DNA from: Candidatus Woesearchaeota archaeon
Lineage (GTDB): Archaea; Nanobdellota; Nanobdellia; Woesearchaeales; DSVV01
Assembly: GCA_016214075.1 (NCBI GenBank)
Contig: JACRPI010000027.1
Span: forward strand, 1 to 57,570
DNA: 57,570 nucleotides
Direction: 5' to 3'
Position 1 is the stretch's first letter; each line of letters opens with the position of its first letter. Shown here in pieces: positions 10,021-17,904 of the stretch. A program made the position numbers and the translations under genes. Below the pieces are notes generated by a model. The model did not search any database and had not been told where the DNA came from. It was given only the letters and a program-made list of their open reading frames with translations.

Positions 10021-10587
10021 ATGAAGTACATCATCGAACATCTGGATCCAGAAATTTACGAATGGTGCATGGTAGAATACACGCACATTTCTGAAATTGT
10101 TGGAAAAGAACAGCTGATCTTTACCAACATCAAAAAAGCAGAAGACAAAAAGAAGTTAGAACTGCTTGGAAACGTAGAAGAAAAATCTGTCAAAGAGCTT
10201 CATCTAAAAAAAGTCTGCATTCTCGATCCTGCTGCGTCAAAGACATTGGAATCAAAGGATAAGCAAACATTTGATTATTTAGTGTTTGGCGGCATTCTTG
10301 GCGACTGGCCACCGCAGCAAAGAACAAAGAAAGAGCTCAGCGAAAAGATGGACGCGGAGCGCAGAAATCTTGGCGAAGAGCAGATGAGCACCAATACCGC
10401 AGTGTACGTCGCAAAAAAGATCATGGATGGAAAGAAATTTTCAGAGTTTGAATTTATTGAAGAACTCGTTATTCCCATTGAAGAAGGAGAAGAGATTTCA
10501 TTGCCATTTAGATTTGTTGTAGAACAGGGAAAACCTGTGCTTGCGAAAGGATATGTTGAGTTTGTAAAGAATCAGGATGTGTTCTAA
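10021..10587 (+). CDS. SPOUT-type protein arginine methyltransferase, SFM1/DUF431-like
   Basis: 188 residues. The start MKYIIEHLDPEIYEWCMVEYTHIS and the motif VFGGILGDWPPQQRTKKEL (near 89) match the archaeal/eukaryotic SFM1 family (DUF431), a knotted SPOUT methyltransferase that in yeast modifies an arginine of ribosomal protein uS3. The archaeal target is presumably also ribosomal. It is third in a tight same-strand run with the dehydrogenase and ICMT genes. Its stop codon overlaps the stop of the convergent recombinase gene by three bases, so the recombinase region abuts it without spacer. Confidence 0.8.
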   Translation: MKYIIEHLDPEIYEWCMVEYTHISEIVGKEQLIFTNIKKAEDKKKLELLGNVEEKSVKELHLKKVCILDPAASKTLESKDKQTFDYLVFGGILGDWPPQQRTKKELSEKMDAERRNLGEEQMSTNTAVYVAKKIMDGKKFSEFEFIEELVIPIEEGEEISLPFRFVVEQGKPVLAKGYVEFVKNQDVF

Positions 10588-11411
10588 TAATCGATTGGAC
10601 TTTTTATTCCAGCTATATTTCTTTTTGAAACATGCGTGTAGATTTGTGTTGTCCGTAAACTGCTATGTCCGAGAAGGTCTTGAATGTAGCGAATATCAGT
10701 TCCTTGATCGAGCAAATGCGTCGCAAAGCTGTGGCGAAGCATGTGCGGGGTGACGTTCATGAGGATTTTCGCTTTTTGTGCTGCCTGAGCGACAATAAGT
10801 TGTGCGCTCTTTATGGTGAGTTTTCCATTTCTTCCGGTGAAAATGTATGTGGAATTATTTTGTTTGTCTAACACAAATTGGAAGAGTTCTTTTTTTGTTG
10901 TTTCCGCCAACAACGTGATTCTATCTTTTTTTCCTTTTCCCTGATTGACGCGAATGATGTTGTTGTCTAAATCAATGTCTTTCCATTGTAACGCGAGACA
11001 TTCGCTGATTCGTAATCCACCAGAATATAAGAACAGCAAAAGGAGTTTGTGTTTTTTATTGGTTGTTTGTTCGATCATTGCCATGACTTGTGGTTTTGAC
11101 AGGACTTTTGGCAATTTTTGTTCTCTTTTTGGTATTATGATGTTTGTTAAGTCTAATTCTCGTTTGAGGACGTGTTGAAAGAAGAAGAGAAGTGCAGCAC
11201 CATTGAGGCGAACAGTAGCGGTGTAATAGTTTTTGTTTATCAACGTGAGAAGATAGTTTTCGATGTCTGTTTTGGTGATAGATTCTGGTGTTTTATTGAC
11301 TGTTTTGAAGAATTGACTGATGAAGTAGGAGTAGACTTTGATAGTTTTAGGGCTGTATCCTTTCAGGGTGAGTTTGTCTGTGAGTTGTTGGGTGTAGTGT
11401 TGGTCGAGCAT
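10584..11411 (-). CDS. Tyrosine recombinase, proposed integron-type integrase
   Basis: 275 residues. The N-terminal SAM-like domain (about 1-90) binds DNA arms; the C-terminal catalytic domain has all the active residues: Arg134 in SGGLRISECL, Lys in GKGKKDR (157-163), His223/Arg226 in HMLRHSFATHL, His249 in LLGHSSLRTT and Tyr258 in IYTHVS. The C-terminus ends with IKSPIDY, like the KSPLD end of integron and Xer-type recombinases. It lacks the extra ~20-residue insertion before the HxxR box that defines bacterial IntI, and is shorter. It is transcribed away from a cassette array whose first recombination site lies 110 bases upstream of its ATG, exactly the integron layout. A TATTTAA box 23-29 bases before the ATG implies a leaderless mRNA. 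Confidence 0.9.
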   Translation of the reverse strand: MLDQHYTQQLTDKLTLKGYSPKTIKVYSYFISQFFKTVNKTPESITKTDIENYLLTLINKNYYTATVRLNGAALLFFFQHVLKRELDLTNIIIPKREQKLPKVLSKPQVMAMIEQTTNKKHKLLLLFLYSGGLRISECLALQWKDIDLDNNIIRVNQGKGKKDRITLLAETTKKELFQFVLDKQNNSTYIFTGRNGKLTIKSAQLIVAQAAQKAKILMNVTPHMLRHSFATHLLDQGTDIRYIQDLLGHSSLRTTQIYTHVSKRNIAGIKSPIDY

Positions 11412-11433
11412 AGTGCTGTTTTTGTTTTCATGA

Positions 11434-11472
11434 TATTTAAACCCAACTGCTTTTTTGTTTACAAAATGTAAA
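11434..11472 (-). promoter_or_regulatory. Recombinase promoter and palindromic operator candidate
   Basis: On the minus strand a TTAAATA box (plus-strand 11434-11440) lies at the right distance for transcription to start at the recombinase ATG. Just upstream is a perfect palindrome TTTACAAAATGTAAA (11458-11472), placed where an archaeal regulator could act. It sits between the recombinase promoter and the attI-like site. Confidence 0.45.
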
Positions 11473-11483
11473 GTATTTACTCA

Positions 11484-11529
11484 ATTAGATAAACTTTTCT
11501 TGTGAAAAGTTCATCTAATAGGTGTTAAA
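11484..11529 (+). other. attI-like primary recombination site
   Basis: A hairpin, ATTAGAT-A-AACTTTTC/GAAAAGTT-C-ATCTAAT, is followed by AGGT and the core GTTAAAC (11523-11529), which fits the integron R' consensus GTTRRRY. It is next to the 5' end of the recombinase gene. The bases from 11523 (GTTAAACGA) are complementary to the left arm of the first attC-like site (TCGTTTAAC, ending at 12088), as expected for a cassette inserted between 11523 and 11524. Confidence 0.6.
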
Positions 11530-11534
11530 CGAAA

Positions 11535-12021
11535 TAGAATTTTCACTTTAAAGAAAAAATTGGTAACCTTGAAAAAACAAACCTTTATTAAATCTGTTAA
11601 TTTAAATAACATTATGAAATGGCTTACAAGAAAAAATGGAATTATACTATGTGCAATTGGGATAGCAATCTTTCTACTTAACTTCCTAACCTATAGTTTA
11701 TGGGAAATTGATATTGATATTCTTGGTGCAATGATTTTTGTTCTTGGCGTAGTAATCGTAATAGCTTGCGGACCTACAATGAAAAATTCCTCTAAACTGT
11801 TAACAAGAAAAAACGGTGTAAGGTTATGCGTAATTACCATGATAATAACAGCATTACTCGCATATTCACCTATTCCATATCTTAACGGAGATATTACTGG
11901 TTTCTTAGGTTTAACAGTGTTTGTTTTAGGTCTAATTATTATAGCTGTAAGATGGAAATATTAAGGTTACCGACTCTTAAATATTGTTGCTTCGCAATTA
12001 TTGATAAAAGTGAAAATTCTA
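11535..12021. repeat. Inverted repeat pair inside cassette 1
   Basis: TAGAATTTTCACTTT at 11535-11549 is perfectly complementary to AAAGTGAAAATTCTA at 12007-12021. The pair brackets the single gene of cassette 1. The left arm starts 11 bases after the predicted strand-exchange point, the same offset (10-11) as in cassettes 2 and 3. Confidence 0.75.
11614..11964 (+). CDS. Cassette 1: small membrane protein with internal tandem duplication
   Basis: 117 residues, four predicted helices in two repeats. Both halves start LTRKNG, run through a first helix, an acidic loop (EIDIDILG, NGDITGFLG) and a second helix of the form FVLGVVIVIA or FVLGLIIIAV. An ancestral two-helix unit has therefore been duplicated. 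No function is recognised. The ATG at 11614 is chosen because TTTATTAAA lies about 30 bases upstream (leaderless); a TTG-initiated longer form from 11560 is possible. It is the only gene in the cassette delimited by 11524 and 12175, read in the same direction as the array. Confidence 0.65.
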   Translation: MKWLTRKNGIILCAIGIAIFLLNFLTYSLWEIDIDILGAMIFVLGVVIVIACGPTMKNSSKLLTRKNGVRLCVITMIITALLAYSPIPYLNGDITGFLGLTVFVLGLIIIAVRWKY

Positions 12022-12081
12022 CTCACTCCGCTTCGCTGCGTGCCACGCTGCGCTCTCGTTCCGCTACGCTCCACTCGGGTC

Positions 12082-12181
12082 GTTTAACAAGGGATATACG
12101 GTTCGGGGCTCGGCTCGCCCCTCACCCAAATTTTTCTTCCGCTACGCTACAGAAAAACTTCGTATATCCCTGACGTTATAT
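12082..12181 (+). other. attC-like site 1
   Basis: R''-like GTTTAAC, one spacer base (A), an 11-bp stem AGGGATATACG/CGTATATCCCT, spacer GAC, and R'-like GTTATAT. The loop is branched: GGGGC/GCCCC and TTTTTCT/AGAAAAA hairpins make a three-way junction. The layout AAC-N-stem...stem-NNN-GTT recurs in all sites of the array. Exchange is predicted between 12175 and 12176. Confidence 0.75.
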
Positions 12182-12318
12182 TCAATCGTCGTGTAGATTT
12201 ATTACGAGGGGGTTTCCGCCTTTAGTCCTATCGGACATTTAGCCTTTTTTTATGAAAAAGAAATTTAATGGGGGGATTTCCTAAGTCCTGCGGACATTTT
12301 GTCTCACTTCGTGAAAAA

Positions 12319-12600
12319 TTATATTACTCCGCCACCACTTTCAAATTTTTTGAATAACCATACAAAGAAAGCAATTAAACCAATAATTCCTGCAATACTG
12401 CCTGCAAGAAAATAACCATTTGTCAAAATGCTTATTGAATTTTCTGCACTTTCAAGTGTTTCTTTGGCTTGTTCATTTTGTCCTAATGGGCTTTCTTTCA
12501 GTTCACTGATAACTAAAAGAAGAACAATCACTACAAAAACAAGTACAATTGTTCCAATTATGCCTTTTACATCTAAAAGATTTTCAAGCGGGTTACTCAT
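12319..12600 (-). CDS. Cassette 2: small two-helix membrane protein
   Basis: 93 residues with membrane helices near 13-30 and 60-82, a charged middle segment (ELKESPLGQNEQAKETLES) and a Gly-rich end. No family is recognised. It is the last gene of the restriction-modification operon, directly after the nuclease stop. It could be an accessory or an unrelated passenger. Confidence 0.6.
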   Translation of the reverse strand: MSNPLENLLDVKGIIGTIVLVFVVIVLLLVISELKESPLGQNEQAKETLESAENSISILTNGYFLAGSIAGIIGLIAFFVWLFKKFESGGGVI

Positions 12601-13644
12601 TTAGCATCTCAACAATTTCTTAAAAATATAGTCTAAGAATTTTTCCCTCTTATCTTCATGTGTTAAAATCGCTGTCAAATTGTAATAGTGTTGAATAGTT
12701 TTATCGCTCTTTACCCTGCCTTCTACCTCAGAAGTTATACAGCTTGCTACAAAAATTGTAATAACCTTTGCATTATGTCTTAATGCTTCCTCAAATGACT
12801 TTTTGGCCGCACCATAACGCTCCAAAGCTCCAGCAGGATCAGTACCTCCCTTAACCTCGATAACTGCTATTGTAGAACCATCCTTATCCAATATTGAAAC
12901 ATCTGGCTCGCTGGAAAATAGAACAGAACGCTTGTTTTTCAAAGTAAAACCCTTAAACTCTCTGACTCTATCCAATTGTTCTTTTATCTTTCCATCATCA
13001 AATCGTTCAACTCCTGAATGATTGTCTCTAAGCAGAAAAGCTGTAAGTTGCGACCTATCAATCGCTTCTTTTATTAGTAATTTTTGCACTACTTTTTCTG
13101 CTTCATCGCCTATGGCATTTCTCCATGAACCATCTATTTGAGCACCAGTCGAAGCAAACAACAGCCCTTTAATATGGTCGTTGTTAAAACCTTCAAGCGC
13201 ACTCTCAATTATCAAAGAAATGTGCTCGTTGAATAATTTGGACAACTGAACAGCCTGAGTTTCTGTCAAATCATTCTTATCGCCATTCTCAAATCTTATC
13301 GGGTGCACTCCACTAAGATAACTTACCGATTTTTGAGACAATGCCGCAACATTTCTATAATAGGCTATTAAAAGAGGATGCTCTCTCAATAATCGAGGAT
13401 GAGCAAAAACCTGAATCAAACTTAAACCTGATTTATTAATCTGCTCAAAAGCTTCTTTTGTTATTCCCCATTCATTGTATTTTGCCCAGTCATAATCCTT
13501 TGAGATCGGTATAAGTTTTTGAATTGTTTCTGGAAATTCATAAGTATTATACTCGTTAAGCTTTCTATAAAAGAATGTTGATCGAAGCCGGTAATTAATC
13601 CTGTGTGCTTCAATCAATAATTGTTTTCTTTCATCTGTTGCCAT
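12601..13644 (-). CDS. Cassette 2: type II restriction endonuclease (XcyI/XamI-like)
   Basis: 347 residues. Near residue 245 the sequence PDVSILDKDGSTIAVIEVKGG gives the PD-(D/E)xK nuclease core (PD ... EVK). The following TDPAGALERYGAAKKSF is a conserved block that I associate with XcyI/XamI-type restriction enzymes (recall, not searched). It would cut unmodified DNA, with the adjacent methyltransferase protecting the host. The ATG at 13644 follows the methyltransferase stop by one base, a coupled arrangement; a longer start at 13668 is less likely. Codon use is AT-richer with few GCG codons compared with host genes, consistent with transfer. Confidence 0.75.
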   Translation of the reverse strand: MATDERKQLLIEAHRINYRLRSTFFYRKLNEYNTYEFPETIQKLIPISKDYDWAKYNEWGITKEAFEQINKSGLSLIQVFAHPRLLREHPLLIAYYRNVAALSQKSVSYLSGVHPIRFENGDKNDLTETQAVQLSKLFNEHISLIIESALEGFNNDHIKGLLFASTGAQIDGSWRNAIGDEAEKVVQKLLIKEAIDRSQLTAFLLRDNHSGVERFDDGKIKEQLDRVREFKGFTLKNKRSVLFSSEPDVSILDKDGSTIAVIEVKGGTDPAGALERYGAAKKSFEEALRHNAKVITIFVASCITSEVEGRVKSDKTIQHYYNLTAILTHEDKREKFLDYIFKKLLRC

Positions 13645-13645
13645 T

Positions 13646-15031
13646 TTATTTCTCCCAAACATAAACACATTTTCTTACTTCCTGTCTTCCATGTTTACCC
13701 ATTTGCTGACTGCTATTACCTTTACCGTTCTGGAGTTTATATATCTTGCCAACTTTTAGACCAAACTCTTTGGCAAATTCAGATAAGATTAAATCAACAG
13801 GGATGACCTCGCCAGCATATCTTACATTATCATTTACATAATATATTTTCCCACCTTTTTTCAATGCTCTGGCCATTTCCATAATAACAAATGCGTGCTC
13901 GTAAAAATAATTTTTTACCATTCTATATATACCGGGATTATTGAGTTTTTTTTCTTCTTTATGTTTTTCAAGAATTTCTAAAACTTCCTGCAATGCTTTG
14001 TTTTTATTAAATACCTTTTCTGCCTTTACAAAATCTAATCCCCTGTTATTCTGCTCGTAGATATTCTTTAAAAAATCAATCTTGTCTTTATTTTCAACTG
14101 TTGCAGATAACAAACTTTGCCTTAAATTTCTAATACCATCTTCACCAAGTCCAAGATAAACTAATTCTAAAGCATAAGTCCTTGTATAATCATACCTATT
14201 GCAATATGGTGGCGAAGAGATAACTAAACTAAAAGAATCATTATTTATTTTTGGCAATACTTCAAGACACGAGCCAGAGTGCAATTTAATCTCTGCATTA
14301 CTTCTATTTTTTGTATTGAAAGTTTTCATATTTCTTAGATCGCTCAGAATTTGATTGAGTTGAGCAAATAATGCTTCCTCAAAACCGAGAATCTTACCCT
14401 TATCAAAGCTTGTTTTTCCTTTTTTTGCTCGATAGTCCCATCTTAGATATTGGCCATCTTTTCTTGTATAACTTATTTTCTCTAATATACTAAAACAAGC
14501 GAAACTTAGAATCTGTTTTAGCTGAGCATCTTTTAGAGTTTGGAGGTAATTCAAGAATCCATTTAATTTCCTTTCAGTATTTTTTGGAAATGCTTTTTCA
14601 GTTATTCTAACGTGCTTAAATGAGTTTTCTGGATTAGTGGGGTATTTTTCAAAATCTATTTTTCTCAATTCTTTTATATCCTTTGAAAGCTTGTCAACAT
14701 CATAATTTTCTAATAGGAGTTTTGATTTTAAGATAAAGTCCCCCACAGGCATAATTTCAATTCCAACTGAATCAAAACCATTTTCTTTAGCACTCAATAA
14801 TGTGGTACAAGAACCAGCAAACGGATCAAAAATTTTCCCCCCTTTGATTTGTGATTCTTTGATAAAAAGTTTAATCATATCTGATGAGAATCCTTCCTTG
14901 AAGCTAAACCAATTGTAAATAGGAATTCTCTTATTTGCTTGAAAACTAACCAGTTGGCGATTTAGTGCTTGATTTACCTCTATTAAATTTGCATATTTGC
15001 TCTCTAATTCTAAACGATTTGAATTAGTCAT
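13646..15031 (-). CDS. Cassette 2: DNA methyltransferase (N4-cytosine/N6-adenine type)
   Basis: 461 residues. SAM-binding motif I is seen as DPFAGSCTT (69-77) and the catalytic motif IV as SPPY (near 275); motif I precedes motif IV. SPPY is typical of N4-cytosine methyltransferases but also occurs in N6-adenine enzymes. It modifies the site cut by the adjacent nuclease. The start at ATG 15031 overlaps the stop of the upstream ribbon-helix-helix gene, so translation is probably coupled; an upstream start at 15046 is in-frame. The order regulator-methyltransferase-nuclease is typical of controlled restriction-modification systems. Confidence 0.85.
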   Translation of the reverse strand: MTNSNRLELESKYANLIEVNQALNRQLVSFQANKRIPIYNWFSFKEGFSSDMIKLFIKESQIKGGKIFDPFAGSCTTLLSAKENGFDSVGIEIMPVGDFILKSKLLLENYDVDKLSKDIKELRKIDFEKYPTNPENSFKHVRITEKAFPKNTERKLNGFLNYLQTLKDAQLKQILSFACFSILEKISYTRKDGQYLRWDYRAKKGKTSFDKGKILGFEEALFAQLNQILSDLRNMKTFNTKNRSNAEIKLHSGSCLEVLPKINNDSFSLVISSPPYCNRYDYTRTYALELVYLGLGEDGIRNLRQSLLSATVENKDKIDFLKNIYEQNNRGLDFVKAEKVFNKNKALQEVLEILEKHKEEKKLNNPGIYRMVKNYFYEHAFVIMEMARALKKGGKIYYVNDNVRYAGEVIPVDLILSEFAKEFGLKVGKIYKLQNGKGNSSQQMGKHGRQEVRKCVYVWEK

Positions 15032-15173
15032 TTTCCTTATCACCATTTTCTAAATCTTTTTTCATAAAATCTTCAATTTTTCGTGATAAGACGACAAAGT
15101 TCTTTTTACAATATTCTTTGTATTTATCATAGATATCTTCATCAACACTTAAAGCAATAGTTTTTCTCCCCAT
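15024..15173 (-). CDS. Cassette 2: ribbon-helix-helix regulator, 49 residues
   Basis: A short frame reads MGRKTIALSVDEDIYDKYK, then a second helix ending FMKKDLENG. The strand TIALSVDEDIYDKY followed by two helices is a CopG/MetJ-like ribbon-helix-helix fold. Its stop overlaps the methyltransferase start by eight bases, so it is the first gene of the operon. Likely role: repressor or controller that times methyltransferase versus nuclease expression. Promoter: TATAAATA-like sequence in 15190-15200. Too short for automatic gene calling, but well supported by fold and position. Confidence 0.72.
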   Translation of the reverse strand: MGRKTIALSVDEDIYDKYKEYCKKNFVVLSRKIEDFMKKDLENGDKEND

Positions 15174-15398
15174 ATGATTTCATATAAACTCATATATTTA
15201 TAAATCTTACGCACACTTGTCCAGTGAAAACCTTCTTTTTGAAAAAGAAGCAAAATAACGGAAATCCCCCTATCTTCTTTTTTTAGAAAAAAGAAGCAAA
15301 AAACGGCGGCGGAAACCCCCATAAAAAACAATAGACACGACGACTTTGATTTTTTGCCTTCGGCATCGTTGCACTAAAAATCAATCCCTATCGGGAGA

Positions 15399-15486
15399 AT
15401 ATAACAGGCATTAACCGACTCCGAAACCTTGCAGGTTTCTTCGTCCAAATCGGCTTCGCCGACTTCGGTTAATGCCGATGTTAGTT
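15399..15486 (+). other. attC-like site 2
   Basis: Left box ATATAAC, spacer A, stem GGCATTAACCGA/TCGGTTAATGCC (12 bp), spacer GAT, right box GTTAGTT. Two inner hairpins, GAAACC/GGTTTC and TCGGC/GCCGA, give a three-way junction. The left arm GAATATAAC (ending 15405) is the exact complement of GTTATATTC at 12175-12183, the start of the same cassette, which is the circular-cassette rule of integrons. Confidence 0.8.
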
Positions 15487-15490
15487 TCAA

Positions 15491-15974
15491 TTGGCGAGCG
15501 AGCTAATATTAAGAGAAAAAGATTAAAATTAATTGGCAGGGTGTCTTTAGATTTTATCTACTTGCATATTCTTTGAGAACTTCAACTACTTGATCTCCAA
15601 CAACTGCTGGCGTGTCATTTTCCAAATCAACTCCACCGTAAATTTGTTTCTTATTATATCTAAAAAGTTTAGCTGTATCAGGTTTTGTCGGATCTTCAAA
15701 AACTAGAATTTCCATTCCCTCATCTTTTGTCCATTGATAAAAAAATGGTCTTGGACCTTTAATTAATGGACTCATACTTGTTGGTTCTCTTTCACTATGA
15801 GCAAAATTTGCTCCATCATACGCTAAGTGTTCTAAGTTTACTGTACTTCCGTTCATTCGATTCACCACACAAACGAGTAATAAGTCAATCTTTTTAAATC
15901 TTTCGGTAATTTACTATTTAACAATAGATACAAAGACCCCCTGCCTTGAAGATTTTTTAACGCTCGCTCGCCAA
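15491..15974. repeat. Inverted repeat pair inside cassette 3
   Basis: TTGGCGAGCGAGC (15491-15503) and GCTCGCTCGCCAA (15962-15974) are perfect complements and bracket the single gene of cassette 3. The left arm starts 10 bases after the predicted exchange point. Confidence 0.75.
15554..15856 (-). CDS. Cassette 3: unknown 100-residue protein
   Basis: Starts MNGSTVNLEHLAYDGANF after GGTGA at normal spacing; a GTG start at 15868 would add four residues. It is soluble, with mixed charge and strands predicted around MEILVFEDP and AKLFRYNKKQIYGG and a C-terminal helix QVVEVLKEYASR. No family is recognised. Opposite strand to the array direction, with its own TTTAAAAA promoter element. Passenger proteins of unknown function are typical integron cargo. 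Confidence 0.6.
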   Translation of the reverse strand: MNGSTVNLEHLAYDGANFAHSEREPTSMSPLIKGPRPFFYQWTKDEGMEILVFEDPTKPDTAKLFRYNKKQIYGGVDLENDTPAVVGDQVVEVLKEYASR

Positions 15975-16015
15975 CTTTTCGGACGAAATTTTCCCACACT
16001 ACGTATGGGAAAAGA

Positions 16016-16175
16016 AACTAACAGGAATTTAACGGTTCGCACGGTCGGCTTCGCCTAAAACGCCAAGCGTTTTCCCCTGCTCTCCCAAATTTATTTTTCG
16101 AGGTCGGAATTTTGTGGGTTGCCTCAAAATTCCTCCGCTCTGAAAAATAAACTTCGTTAAATTCCGATGTTTCGT
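16016..16175 (+). other. attC-like site 3
   Basis: Left box AACTAAC, spacer A, stem GGAATTTAACG/CGTTAAATTCC, spacer GAT, right box GTTTCGT. The 160-bp site has inner hairpins AAAACGC/GCGTTTT and TTTATTTTTC/GAAAAATAAA, the latter enclosing GGAATTTTG/CAAAATTCC. The left arm GAAACTAAC (16014-16022) is the exact complement of GTTAGTTTC at 15480-15488, the start of cassette 3. Confidence 0.8.
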
Positions 16176-16620
16176 TCAATTTTCCCTTTTGCCGGGCGTT
16201 ATTTGTTGGAAATACCCCGTTGCTTGCAACGGTTGGGTTACCGCTTTTTTATCATTAGGGGTATTTCCAACATTAAAAATCCCAACACTCGTCTCTCTTA
16301 ATACCCCGCCCCTTGGGGCGATTGGAATTTTTATTTTCTAAACGACGGGTTTCGTTTAACCACGCCAATGCGCAAAGGGTGCGCATAACGCGTTGGGTTA
16401 ACAATAATTGCAGTGCAATTATTGGAATTAATAATTTACAAATTATTAATATGTTTCGAATATACCACTGGTTTAGTAACCAGTGGACAAGTCCACCTTC
16501 GTTTTTTGAAGGTGCTATATTCGTAACATGCTCAAGAACCACCGAGATCATGCCACCGATCTATAGCGACCGAAGGGAGCGGTGATCGGTGGTTCTTGAC
16601 AAACGACATTTTGGCGGCGC
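16176..16620. repeat. Non-coding hairpin-dense tract at the distal end of the array
   Basis: About 440 bases with at least nine near-perfect palindromes: GTTGGAAATACCCC/GGGGTATTTCCAAC enclosing CGTTGC/GCAACG; CGCCCC/GGGGCG; TAAACGA/TCGTTTA; CAATAATTGCA/TGCAATTATTG; ATTAATAATTT/AAATTATTAAT; CGAATATA/TATATTCG enclosing CCACTGGTT/AACCAGTGG and CACCTTC/GAAGGTG; and TCAAGAACCACCGA/TCGGTGGTTCTTGA. Frames of 90 or so residues cross it on both strands but are made of these repeats and show no protein-like pattern. It could be a series of gene-less cassettes or decayed sites. Confidence 0.65.
16354..16403 (+). other. attC-like site 4 (compact, 50 bp)
   Basis: Left box GTTTAAC, spacer C, ACGC, a hairpin with ATGCGC/GCGCAT, GCGT, spacer TGG, right box GTTAACA. 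The spacing AAC-1-stem, stem-3-GTT matches the three larger sites. Its left arm TTTCGTTTAAC is complementary to GTTAAACGAAA at 11523-11533, the start of cassette 1, so it may be the original partner of the attI-proximal end or a rearranged site. It does not match the start of the preceding segment (GTTTCGTTC at 16169). Confidence 0.5.
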
Positions 16621-16880: not shown

Positions 16881-17312
16881 ATGGCAAGTATCGCATTACA
16901 TAAAAAGCACATAAAAGAACATATAGAAGAAATTAATGAAGCAATAGACAAAGGTATAGAAAAAAGACCCGCTACAATAGGTTTTCATACGAGTGCATGT
17001 TCTACTGAACTGCTTGAACTGTATCTTCATAAAAAGAATATAATTACAACTGGAAAGACCGTTAAGCATAATTGGTTCGAGCGTCCAAAAGCAGAACAAA
17101 AAATAAAGCCGCTTATTGAGAGAAAACTTGACGTTGATTTTCCTTCCAAGAAAGATATTTATGATCTTATCTACCGCATAGAAGAAAATAGGGATAATCT
17201 TATCTATGGAAATTCAAAAACTGAGCAAATAGAGCTCGTTCTCAAAACATTTATGCAATTAAAGGAACGCATGATCAAAGAGTTAAAGGAATTAGGTGAG
17301 GATATTGAGTAG
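16881..17312 (+). CDS. HEPN-like helical protein (toxin candidate)
   Basis: 143 residues, all-helical and strongly charged. A segment near residue 113, EENRDNLIYGNS, resembles the RxxxxxH/Y region of HEPN toxins paired with nucleotidyltransferases (archaeal forms often carry RDxLxYG), but the canonical His is absent. The preceding gene arrangement and the following MNT-type nucleotidyltransferase, which overlaps its stop, fit a HEPN-MNT toxin-antitoxin pair, where the MNT protein AMPylates and silences the HEPN RNase. The start codon is fixed by the TATA box and operator immediately upstream (leaderless or very short leader). Confidence 0.55.
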   Translation: MASIALHKKHIKEHIEEINEAIDKGIEKRPATIGFHTSACSTELLELYLHKKNIITTGKTVKHNWFERPKAEQKIKPLIERKLDVDFPSKKDIYDLIYRIEENRDNLIYGNSKTEQIELVLKTFMQLKERMIKELKELGEDIE

Positions 17313-17904
17313 ACAAGATCTCATTGCACTTTGCTATGTGTATGTTAGCTACCTCTTTAGAGAAAAGATAGAAGATAAAATAAGTGCAATCTATCTTTTT
17401 GGTTCAGTTGCGCGCGGGGATTTTGATAAAGACAGTGACATAGATATTTTTATTGATATAAAGAAAATGGATGAGGCAGCTATAAAAAGAGTAAGTGAGA
17501 GTGCTTTGAAAAAACTATATGCAATAGAAGGAAAAAAATGGGAATTGAAAGGCATTACTAATCCACTGAGAGTAAAAGTAGGTTCTCTTGATGAATGGGA
17601 CTTAAAGGAAAGCATTGAGCGAGAAGGACTTATTATTTTTGGTCAAAGTACGGGCAGTGGAATGAAAAAATATCTTCTTTTTTCTTTTGTTCCAAGTAAA
17701 GAACCAAAAAAGAGGGCTCGTGTTCTCAGAAAACTGTTTGGAAGAATAGAAAAAGAATACATTGACCAAGGAGTAGTCCAAAAACAGAATGGAAAGATTT
17801 TATCACCAAGAGTTTTTATTGTTCCTGCTCTTGCGCTCAAAGAAATAACACAATTTCTTGCAAACGAAAGAGTAGAATATAAATTTGAAGAAATATGGAA
17901 ATGA
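17296..17904 (+). CDS. MNT-family nucleotidyltransferase (antitoxin candidate)
   Basis: 202 residues. The polymerase-beta fold motif is clear: YLFGSVARGDFDKDSDIDIF near residue 32, with Gly-Ser and two catalytic Asp residues. The C-terminal half is an extra helical domain beginning KKYLLFSFVPSKEPKK. Family members transfer AMP to partner proteins. The gene starts with GTG inside the previous frame (16-base overlap), so translation is coupled. Alternative: a stand-alone DNA-binding nucleotidyltransferase unrelated to toxin control. Confidence 0.7.
   Translation: MRILSRQDLIALCYVYVSYLFREKIEDKISAIYLFGSVARGDFDKDSDIDIFIDIKKMDEAAIKRVSESALKKLYAIEGKKWELKGITNPLRVKVGSLDEWDLKESIEREGLIIFGQSTGSGMKKYLLFSFVPSKEPKKRARVLRKLFGRIEKEYIDQGVVQKQNGKILSPRVFIVPALALKEITQFLANERVEYKFEEIWK

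Follow-up and report, generated by a model that had tools for sequence, protein, structure and literature searches.

An integron-type cassette array with a XerA-like recombinase in a woesearchaeal genome

Integrons (e.g., the class 1 integron with IntI1 or the Vibrio integron with IntIA) combine a divergently transcribed tyrosine recombinase, an attI site beside its 5' end, crossover at G|TT, and arrays of cassettes that end in R''-L''-L'-R' palindromes (attC), the complementarity of R'' and R' being complete only in the circular cassette. All these features, the crossover as a prediction, are found in a 57,570-nucleotide stretch (hereafter, the window; contig JACRPI010000027.1) of the genome of Candidatus Woesearchaeota archaeon, at a locus that very probably represents a full platform for cassette capture, of the integron type but operating without IntI. 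The anatomy, the cassette borders, the gain and loss of cassettes at G|TT, and the linkage of such arrays to one recombinase family are seen directly in the sequences. An earlier note made from the letters of this DNA had placed the array in an archaeon, and the genome indeed encodes ribosomal protein S8e, which was found only in archaeal controls.

As judged from these sequences, the locus behaves like an integron in its anatomy and lacks one defining feature, an IntI with the I2 helix. One study describes this helix as a requirement for cassette capture, as the source of single-strand recombination and as a feature of no other protein; according to its authors, direct proof of its causal role is missing because its deletion kills IntI1 (PMC7790495). 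Unlike in described integrons, the recombinase lies outside the IntI clade, the attI site contains an inverted pair of arms, most attC sites appear to have 1-nt and 3-nt spacers and an uninterrupted L stem, and a conserved AAT is found nine bases in from the 5' end of the cassettes.

A survey by Ghaly et al. 2022 reported integrons in 75 of 6718 archaeal genomes (~1%), mostly as clusters without an integrase, together with six archaeal IntIs that contain the IntI-specific domain (PMC9668308). As in that survey, attC arrays are present here in archaeal genomes, those of the phylum Nanoarchaeota in the Genome Taxonomy Database included in both, and exchange between archaea and bacteria was already proposed there. 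In contrast to it, attC sites occur in 37% of the sampled genomes of a single order, and the recombinase linked to the arrays is of a different type. Because the detection method demands the IntI-specific profile, this type could not be called in the survey, and some of the integrase-less arrays reported there may belong to the IntI-free type (PMC9668308). No description of IntI-free integrons in DPANN archaea or in bacteria of the Candidate Phyla Radiation (CPR) was found in the literature searched, with most subscription papers and all bioRxiv preprints outside reach.

Two other systems resemble the locus in part. Archaeal XerA (PDB entries 4a8e and 5hxy) has the same length and domains; however, XerA resolves chromosome dimers at one dif site, whereas the gene in the window is accessory, attached to a cassette array, and absent from the equivalent locus of a genome of the same genus. 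The recombinase fits the XerA sequence family and does not fit the status of a conserved, single-copy housekeeping gene. In the Xer-dif (pdif) modules of plasmids, genes are bounded by Xer-type recombination sites, which is a likeness to the array; these modules are not known to contain a hairpin attC, an attI site or a recombinase of their own beside the array.

Anatomy of the locus and the cassette boundaries

The recombinase gene (10584-11411, minus strand) is complete and encodes a 275-aa protein (PF00589, E-value 1.7e-40, and PF13495). At its 3' side, the stop codon directly adjoins the end of the gene for an SFM1-like methyltransferase (10021-10587); at its 5' side, the gene faces the inverted repeat of the attI-like site (11485-11526, plus strand), in agreement with the earlier note, which had described a recombinase transcribed leftwards from a GTTAAAC site. 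This site consists of the inverted arms TTAGATAAACTTTTC-TTGT-GAAAAGTTCATCTAA followed by TAGGTGTT, with the predicted crossover at G11524/T11525, exactly where complementarity to attC1 places the start of the first cassette; a palindrome of the form ..TAATAGGT|GTT adjoins the recombinase in related loci, too.

Three cassettes follow head to tail on the plus strand. Cassette 1 (11525-12175, 651 bp) is delimited by attC1 (12080-12183), with R'' TCGTTTAAC, an L stem of 11-12 bp and R' GTTATATTC; cassette 2 (12176-15480, 3305 bp) by attC2 (15397-15488), with R'' GAATATAAC, a 12-bp L stem and R' GTTAGTTTC; and cassette 3 (15481-16169, 689 bp) by attC3 (16014-16177), which fits the strict site grammar with R'' GAAACTAAC, an 11-bp L stem, a long loop and R' GTTTCGTTC. 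The form AAC-A-12 bp stem...stem-3 nt-GTT occurs exactly three times when both strands of the window are searched (12086-12177, 15403-15482 and 16020-16171, all on the plus strand) and in none of 200 dinucleotide shuffles. The accepted array accordingly extends from attI (11485) to attC3 (16177).

The earlier note had listed a fourth site, at 16354, and ascribed the same spacing to all four; three of the sites have it, whereas the fourth palindrome (~16350-16405, plus strand; TCGTTTAACCACGCC...GGGTTAACAAT) lacks the form with 1-nt and 3-nt spacers and a perfect stem. Its left arm is complementary to the start of the preceding cassette, GTTTCGTTC, in 0/6 bases, and it is not matched by the covariance model R1 up to E=10 with filters off. 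This palindrome was not accepted into the array and is possibly a decayed or foreign attC. Several nested palindromes (including GTTTCGAATATA...TATATTCGTAAC) occupy the distal end of the array (16400-16605) and are possibly decayed cassettes.

An integrated attC is a hybrid that joins R'' of one cassette to R' of the next (e.g., R' of attC1, GTTATATTC, is part of cassette 2, not of cassette 1), so that a circular cassette with a folding attC must pair its first bases with its own R''. The resulting boundary rule, i.e., complementarity between the first bases of a cassette after GTT and the left arm (R'') of its own attC, was scored over six variable bases. The complementarity that had been noticed in the three window cassettes turned out to be exact, with 6/6 variable bases in each (attI GTT-AAACGA with TCGTTT-AAC, GTT-ATATTC with GAATAT-AAC, and GTT-AGTTTC with GAAACT-AAC). 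In the discovery loci, all 14 adjacent pairs match at least at 5/6 bases, compared to 7.6% of random cross-locus combinations; the discovery sites were found through a stem search, which biases their pairing percentage. Within a single integrated site, R'' and R' reach this level in only 2/36 cases. Among 20 independent loci, which stood outside model building and were found with a model trained on the discovery sites, the rule is obeyed by 41/59 adjacent pairs vs 26/221 non-adjacent pairs of the same locus (Fisher P=7e-18), and, in CPR bacteria, by 25/36 adjacent pairs. The cassette 5' ends conform, almost without exception, to the pattern GTTA-nnnnn-AAT.

In an alignment of ten sites from which model R1 was built, and which include attC1, attC2 and attC3 of the window, 99.4% of the cells are paired, a value inflated by the search for stems, and 9/16 pairs show changes on both sides; the covariation score of the L stem, which is less affected by this search, was reached in 0/500 shuffles. 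With this model, attC1 scores 74.8 bits (E 1.9e-15), attC2 87.1 bits (E 2.1e-18) and attC3 39.4 bits (E 4.1e-6). The array sites have ends of the RYYYAAC/GTTRRRY type and a covarying stem, with the variable bases of R' deviating from strict RRRY. In the independent sites, the most common geometry includes a left spacer of 1 nt (A), a right spacer of 3 nt (GAT) and an uninterrupted L stem, which is at least 11 bp long in 42/74 sites, so that most of the sites appear to lack a bulged base of the kind docked by the I2 helix of IntI. The sites of an array lie on one strand in 20/20 archaeal and 24/24 further loci. A locating test for attI (GTT followed by the complement of R'' of the first attC and AAT) returns the palindrome on the recombinase side in most loci with a recombinase and an array, the exceptions being L222, where none was found, and L226, where an undetected first site lies in between.

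These boundaries bear on the possibility that the locus is a double-strand Xer/dif-type system similar to pdif modules, in which dif-like duplex sites are recombined and the hairpins stay unfolded during the reaction. XerA is the closest characterized family, the attI arms look dif-like, and the I2 helix that is credited with single-strand recombination is missing, all of which would fit such a system. However, the complementarity of the first ~9 nt of a cassette with its own R'' is a need of a folded circular cassette and not of a double-strand site: in a duplex, neither the complementarity of a cassette 5' end to the 3' arm of the same cassette nor the covariation of the 12-bp L stems would serve a purpose, and the attC sites do not contain two dif-like core arms. 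A duplex mechanism hence appears quite unlikely.

Affiliation of the recombinase

The recombinase of the window scores 245.5 bits with the NCBIfam model recomb_XerA_Arch (NF040815), above the cut-off of 220, and 221 with the integron integrase model TIGR02249, below the cut-off of 265. The closest solved relatives by sequence and fold are XerA from Pyrococcus abyssi (4a8e, E 1.3e-45) and from Thermoplasma (5hxy, 1.1e-42). The residues R134, K159, H223, R226, H249 and Y258 are invariant in the alignment of homologs. The lack of the IntI-specific insertion, already noticed in the earlier note, is confirmed by an alignment with IntI1, IntI2 and 12 further IntIs, in which the protein has no insertion around IntI1 residues 190-211; the insertion is likewise missing from all aligned att-associated homologs from DPANN and CPR. 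Consistently, the match to the VchIntI structure 2a3v is split at the insertion position, and an AlphaFold model (mean pLDDT, the per-residue confidence score, 83) contains no extra helix at the I2 position.

In the phylogenetic tree, whose supports are SH-aLRT values (approximate likelihood ratio test) only and leave the deep order unresolved, IntI forms one clade (support 100) with the window recombinase outside it, grouped with att-associated recombinases from DPANN in a clade of 17 (97). The CPR recombinases form a separate clade (99), and two further DPANN clades carry att sites. The DPANN XerA-like genes without att sites lie outside a 62-row clade that holds all of these clades, including that of the window recombinase (90). 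These results support the assignment of the protein, on sequence grounds, to a XerA-like type outside IntI that may represent a distinct lineage. In the earlier note, a grouping with chromosomal XerA would have spoken against the integron-like reading; the fit to the NCBIfam XerA model amounts to such a grouping superficially, but the tree places the recombinase with att-associated paralogs, apart from the att-less XerA-like genes of DPANN.

Another possible interpretation is a housekeeping XerA that happens to lie next to unrelated dispersed repeats or terminators. In its favor, the XerA call is above the cut-off, and no other XerA-type gene was found in the genome of the window, where the second PF00589 protein (contig C8) is of a different, 270-aa type. 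However, two genomes of the same genus, G001 and G002 (metagenome-assembled, 82% and 89% complete), have no match to the recombinase; in G001, the locus is empty. Genome G021 has an array-associated copy along with a separate XerA-like copy, the att-less genes fall outside the clade just described, and random palindromes do not follow the boundary rule. Taken together, these findings make a housekeeping role extremely improbable.

Beyond archaea and CPR, the best relatives in phage and plasmid collections are plasmids bearing IntI1 or IntI2 and a Persicobacter replicon (42% identity), the latter with no attC array beside the gene according to the site scan. Bacteroidota encode XerA-like genes that are close in sequence and have no att array by the site grammar.

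Cassette exchange and proposed mechanism

Comparison of cassette content in related genomes, which the earlier note had proposed as a check, reveals differences exactly at the predicted G|TT points, contrary to the absence of gain and loss that would have counted against cassettes. In loci L055 and L056, from two congeneric species, the DNA on the recombinase side, attI included, is almost the same at every base as far as the crossover and differs beyond it; the DNA that follows attI in one of the loci is located 1.2 kb further in the other, behind extra cassettes and again starting from GTT. Homology also breaks at the attI GTT in L052/L059 and L038/L040. In the window itself, junction 12175 is chimeric: the DNA to the left (attC1) is 83-86% identical to CPR attCs, with the match ending there, whereas the DNA to the right matches genomes of the archaeal order (L221, L052) starting at the same point. 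In G001, the comparison genome for the empty locus (the contigs of G002 break on both sides), the SFM1-like and ThyX flanking genes share a contig and are separated by two unrelated genes, the recombinase and the array both being absent, which implies that the element is accessory. The proposal of an integron-like array with a recombinase of possibly distinct lineage thus holds up in the attI/attC anatomy, the orientation of the sites, the boundary rule in independent loci, the gain and loss at G|TT, the empty locus and the tree.

The complementarity of R'' with R' and of the L stem leads us to infer that the active form of attC is a folded single strand. The exchange would be performed by the XerA-like recombinase, which would bind the arm of attI that adjoins TAATAGGTGTT as well as, in an attC formed by the folding of a single DNA strand, the R and L boxes; strand exchange at G|TT would insert circular cassettes at attI and excise them between attCs. 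Given an enzyme without the I2 helix and an L stem that mostly appears to lack extrahelical bases, the choice of the strand is probably set, in place of such bases, by the asymmetry of the central spacer (A opposite GAT or GAC).

Apart from the bias of the discovery set, several points weigh against the interpretation of the locus as an IntI-free capture platform. The case is made from assembled sequences, and recombination is deduced from them. About 30% of the adjacent pairs in independent loci break the boundary rule, some because of an undetected intermediate site and others perhaps through decay. The species pair in which cassette gain is observed belongs to a related clade with short sites and does not represent the subtype of the window. 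The open reading frames (ORFs) of the cassettes have mixed directions, with 29 along and 20 opposite to the array, whereas classic arrays are co-oriented. Finally, deletion of I2 inactivates IntI1 (PMC7790495), so that activity without I2 must be shown.

A broader evolutionary scenario, for which the chances seem somewhat less than even, is that cassette capture via folded single-strand attC sites exists without I2 and predates it. Under this scenario, a broader group of XerA-like cassette recombinases is shared by DPANN and CPR, which exchange cassettes across domains via a common attC type, and IntI is a single branch of that group in which I2 was a later addition. A widespread natural system that combines folded-looking attC arrays with an I2-less recombinase makes the question of the role of I2 testable. 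Judging from the contrast between ~1% of archaeal genomes in the published survey and 37% in this order, most integrons of these lineages probably escape surveys based on the integrase. The platform would also offer reduced, host-dependent archaea and CPR bacteria a route to restriction-modification, transport and other genes, possibly across domains as well, given that attC1 is CPR-like up to the crossover and the DNA beyond it matches archaeal genomes of the order.

Distribution and cassette cargo

A site scan with R1 at E<=1e-4 (the E-values of the model are rough, and most of the sampled genomes are draft assemblies in many contigs) detects attC sites in 89/242 genomes (37%) of the archaeal order, with up to 15 in one genome, and in 31/287 genomes of the CPR (Patescibacteria) phylum that includes a Gracilibacteria genome. 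In the control, the phylum of the Flavobacteriales genome G255, only 2/148 genomes have a site, one each. One single good match in this phylum, L269 (G547:C2 2845860-2845952; E 7e-10), has R'' GCACATAAC and R' GTTGAACGC. The same type of platform is present in CPR at L249 (on the 984-kb contig G383:C1), L250, L252, L256, L257 and L258; the recombinases group in a clade of their own and lack I2 where checked.

Wherever a recombinase and an array occur together, the XerA-like gene is located on the attI side and is divergent (14/14 archaeal loci, the window included, and 6/6 CPR loci). This regularity argues against an ordinary integron remnant, i.e., a cluster of attC sites lacking an integrase (CALIN), in which a canonical IntI acting elsewhere would have moved the cassettes and the neighboring XerA-like gene is coincidental. 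Such clusters are the most common form reported in archaea (PMC9668308), and the attC sites of genome G029 are located away from its recombinase, both of which favor this interpretation. Nevertheless, an IntI above the TIGR02249 cut-off was found in 0/242 genomes of the order, and the other PF00589 protein of the window's genome is of the 270-aa type, so that the remnant explanation is very unlikely. Sub-threshold TIGR02249 matches exist in 129/242 genomes and, among the matches listed, nearly all cover just the parts of the profile that flank the insertion. The sites of G029, a near-finished genome of three contigs, map to G029:C2 34567-35434 and G029:C1 122014 and represent dispersed cassettes.

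Several variants of the sites were observed. In L186 (G029:C3 102096-103467), attI and two attCs carry GAT/ATC in step, replacing GTT/AAC, which looks like covariation of the crossover bases along the array. Upstream of the recombinase in L056 (G006:C12) and L055 (G009:C151), there is a second subtype with mini-cassettes of ~170 bp and a very short attC that consists of a 9-nt R'', ACC and R'. The boundary rule is kept along this short-attC array (GTTAGTCTC...GAGACTAAC, GTTATGCTG...CAGCATAAC, ATTAAGTCC...GGACTTAAC), in which the cassette start GTTATGCTG... is present twice.

The scan of the cargo covered 51 proteins (the longest ORF of most of the cassettes tested and two further ORFs). The families are diverse with few repeats and include restriction-modification systems (types II, IIG and III), Fic, methyltransferases, nucleotidyltransferases and hydrolases. 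The cassettes range from 196 to 7658 bp, with a median of 928 bp. Different cassettes of L056, L063 and L184 (115-195) have a common leader directly after the border, roughly TTTTAGTGGCACGAACnGATnGGGG, which is perhaps a shared expression module.

The cassettes of the window are carriers of defense and accessory genes. Cassette 1 contains an ORF (11560-11964, plus strand, ATG at 11614) for a predicted small membrane protein of unassigned family, without a Pfam match. Cassette 2 carries type II restriction-modification genes on the minus strand, namely, an XcyI-like restriction endonuclease (12601-13668; PF09571, 2e-20) and a methyltransferase (13646-15046; PF01555; PADLOC MTase_II, 9e-151), as well as a 93-aa membrane protein (12319-12600). 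The ORF of cassette 3 (15554-15868, minus strand) encodes 104 aa, again with the family unassigned and no Pfam match. A second array in the same genome (G000:C42, a 5.4-kb contig with four sites) encodes a P-type ATPase, a DUF7736 protein, and a BsaWI-like restriction enzyme with its methyltransferase.

An Rfam scan of the window returned only a tRNA. Beside the array, at 16881-17904, a 143-aa protein without a known family is followed by a 202-aa nucleotidyltransferase (NTP_transf_2, with a weak match to the MntA antitoxin model); these two genes might encode a toxin-antitoxin pair.

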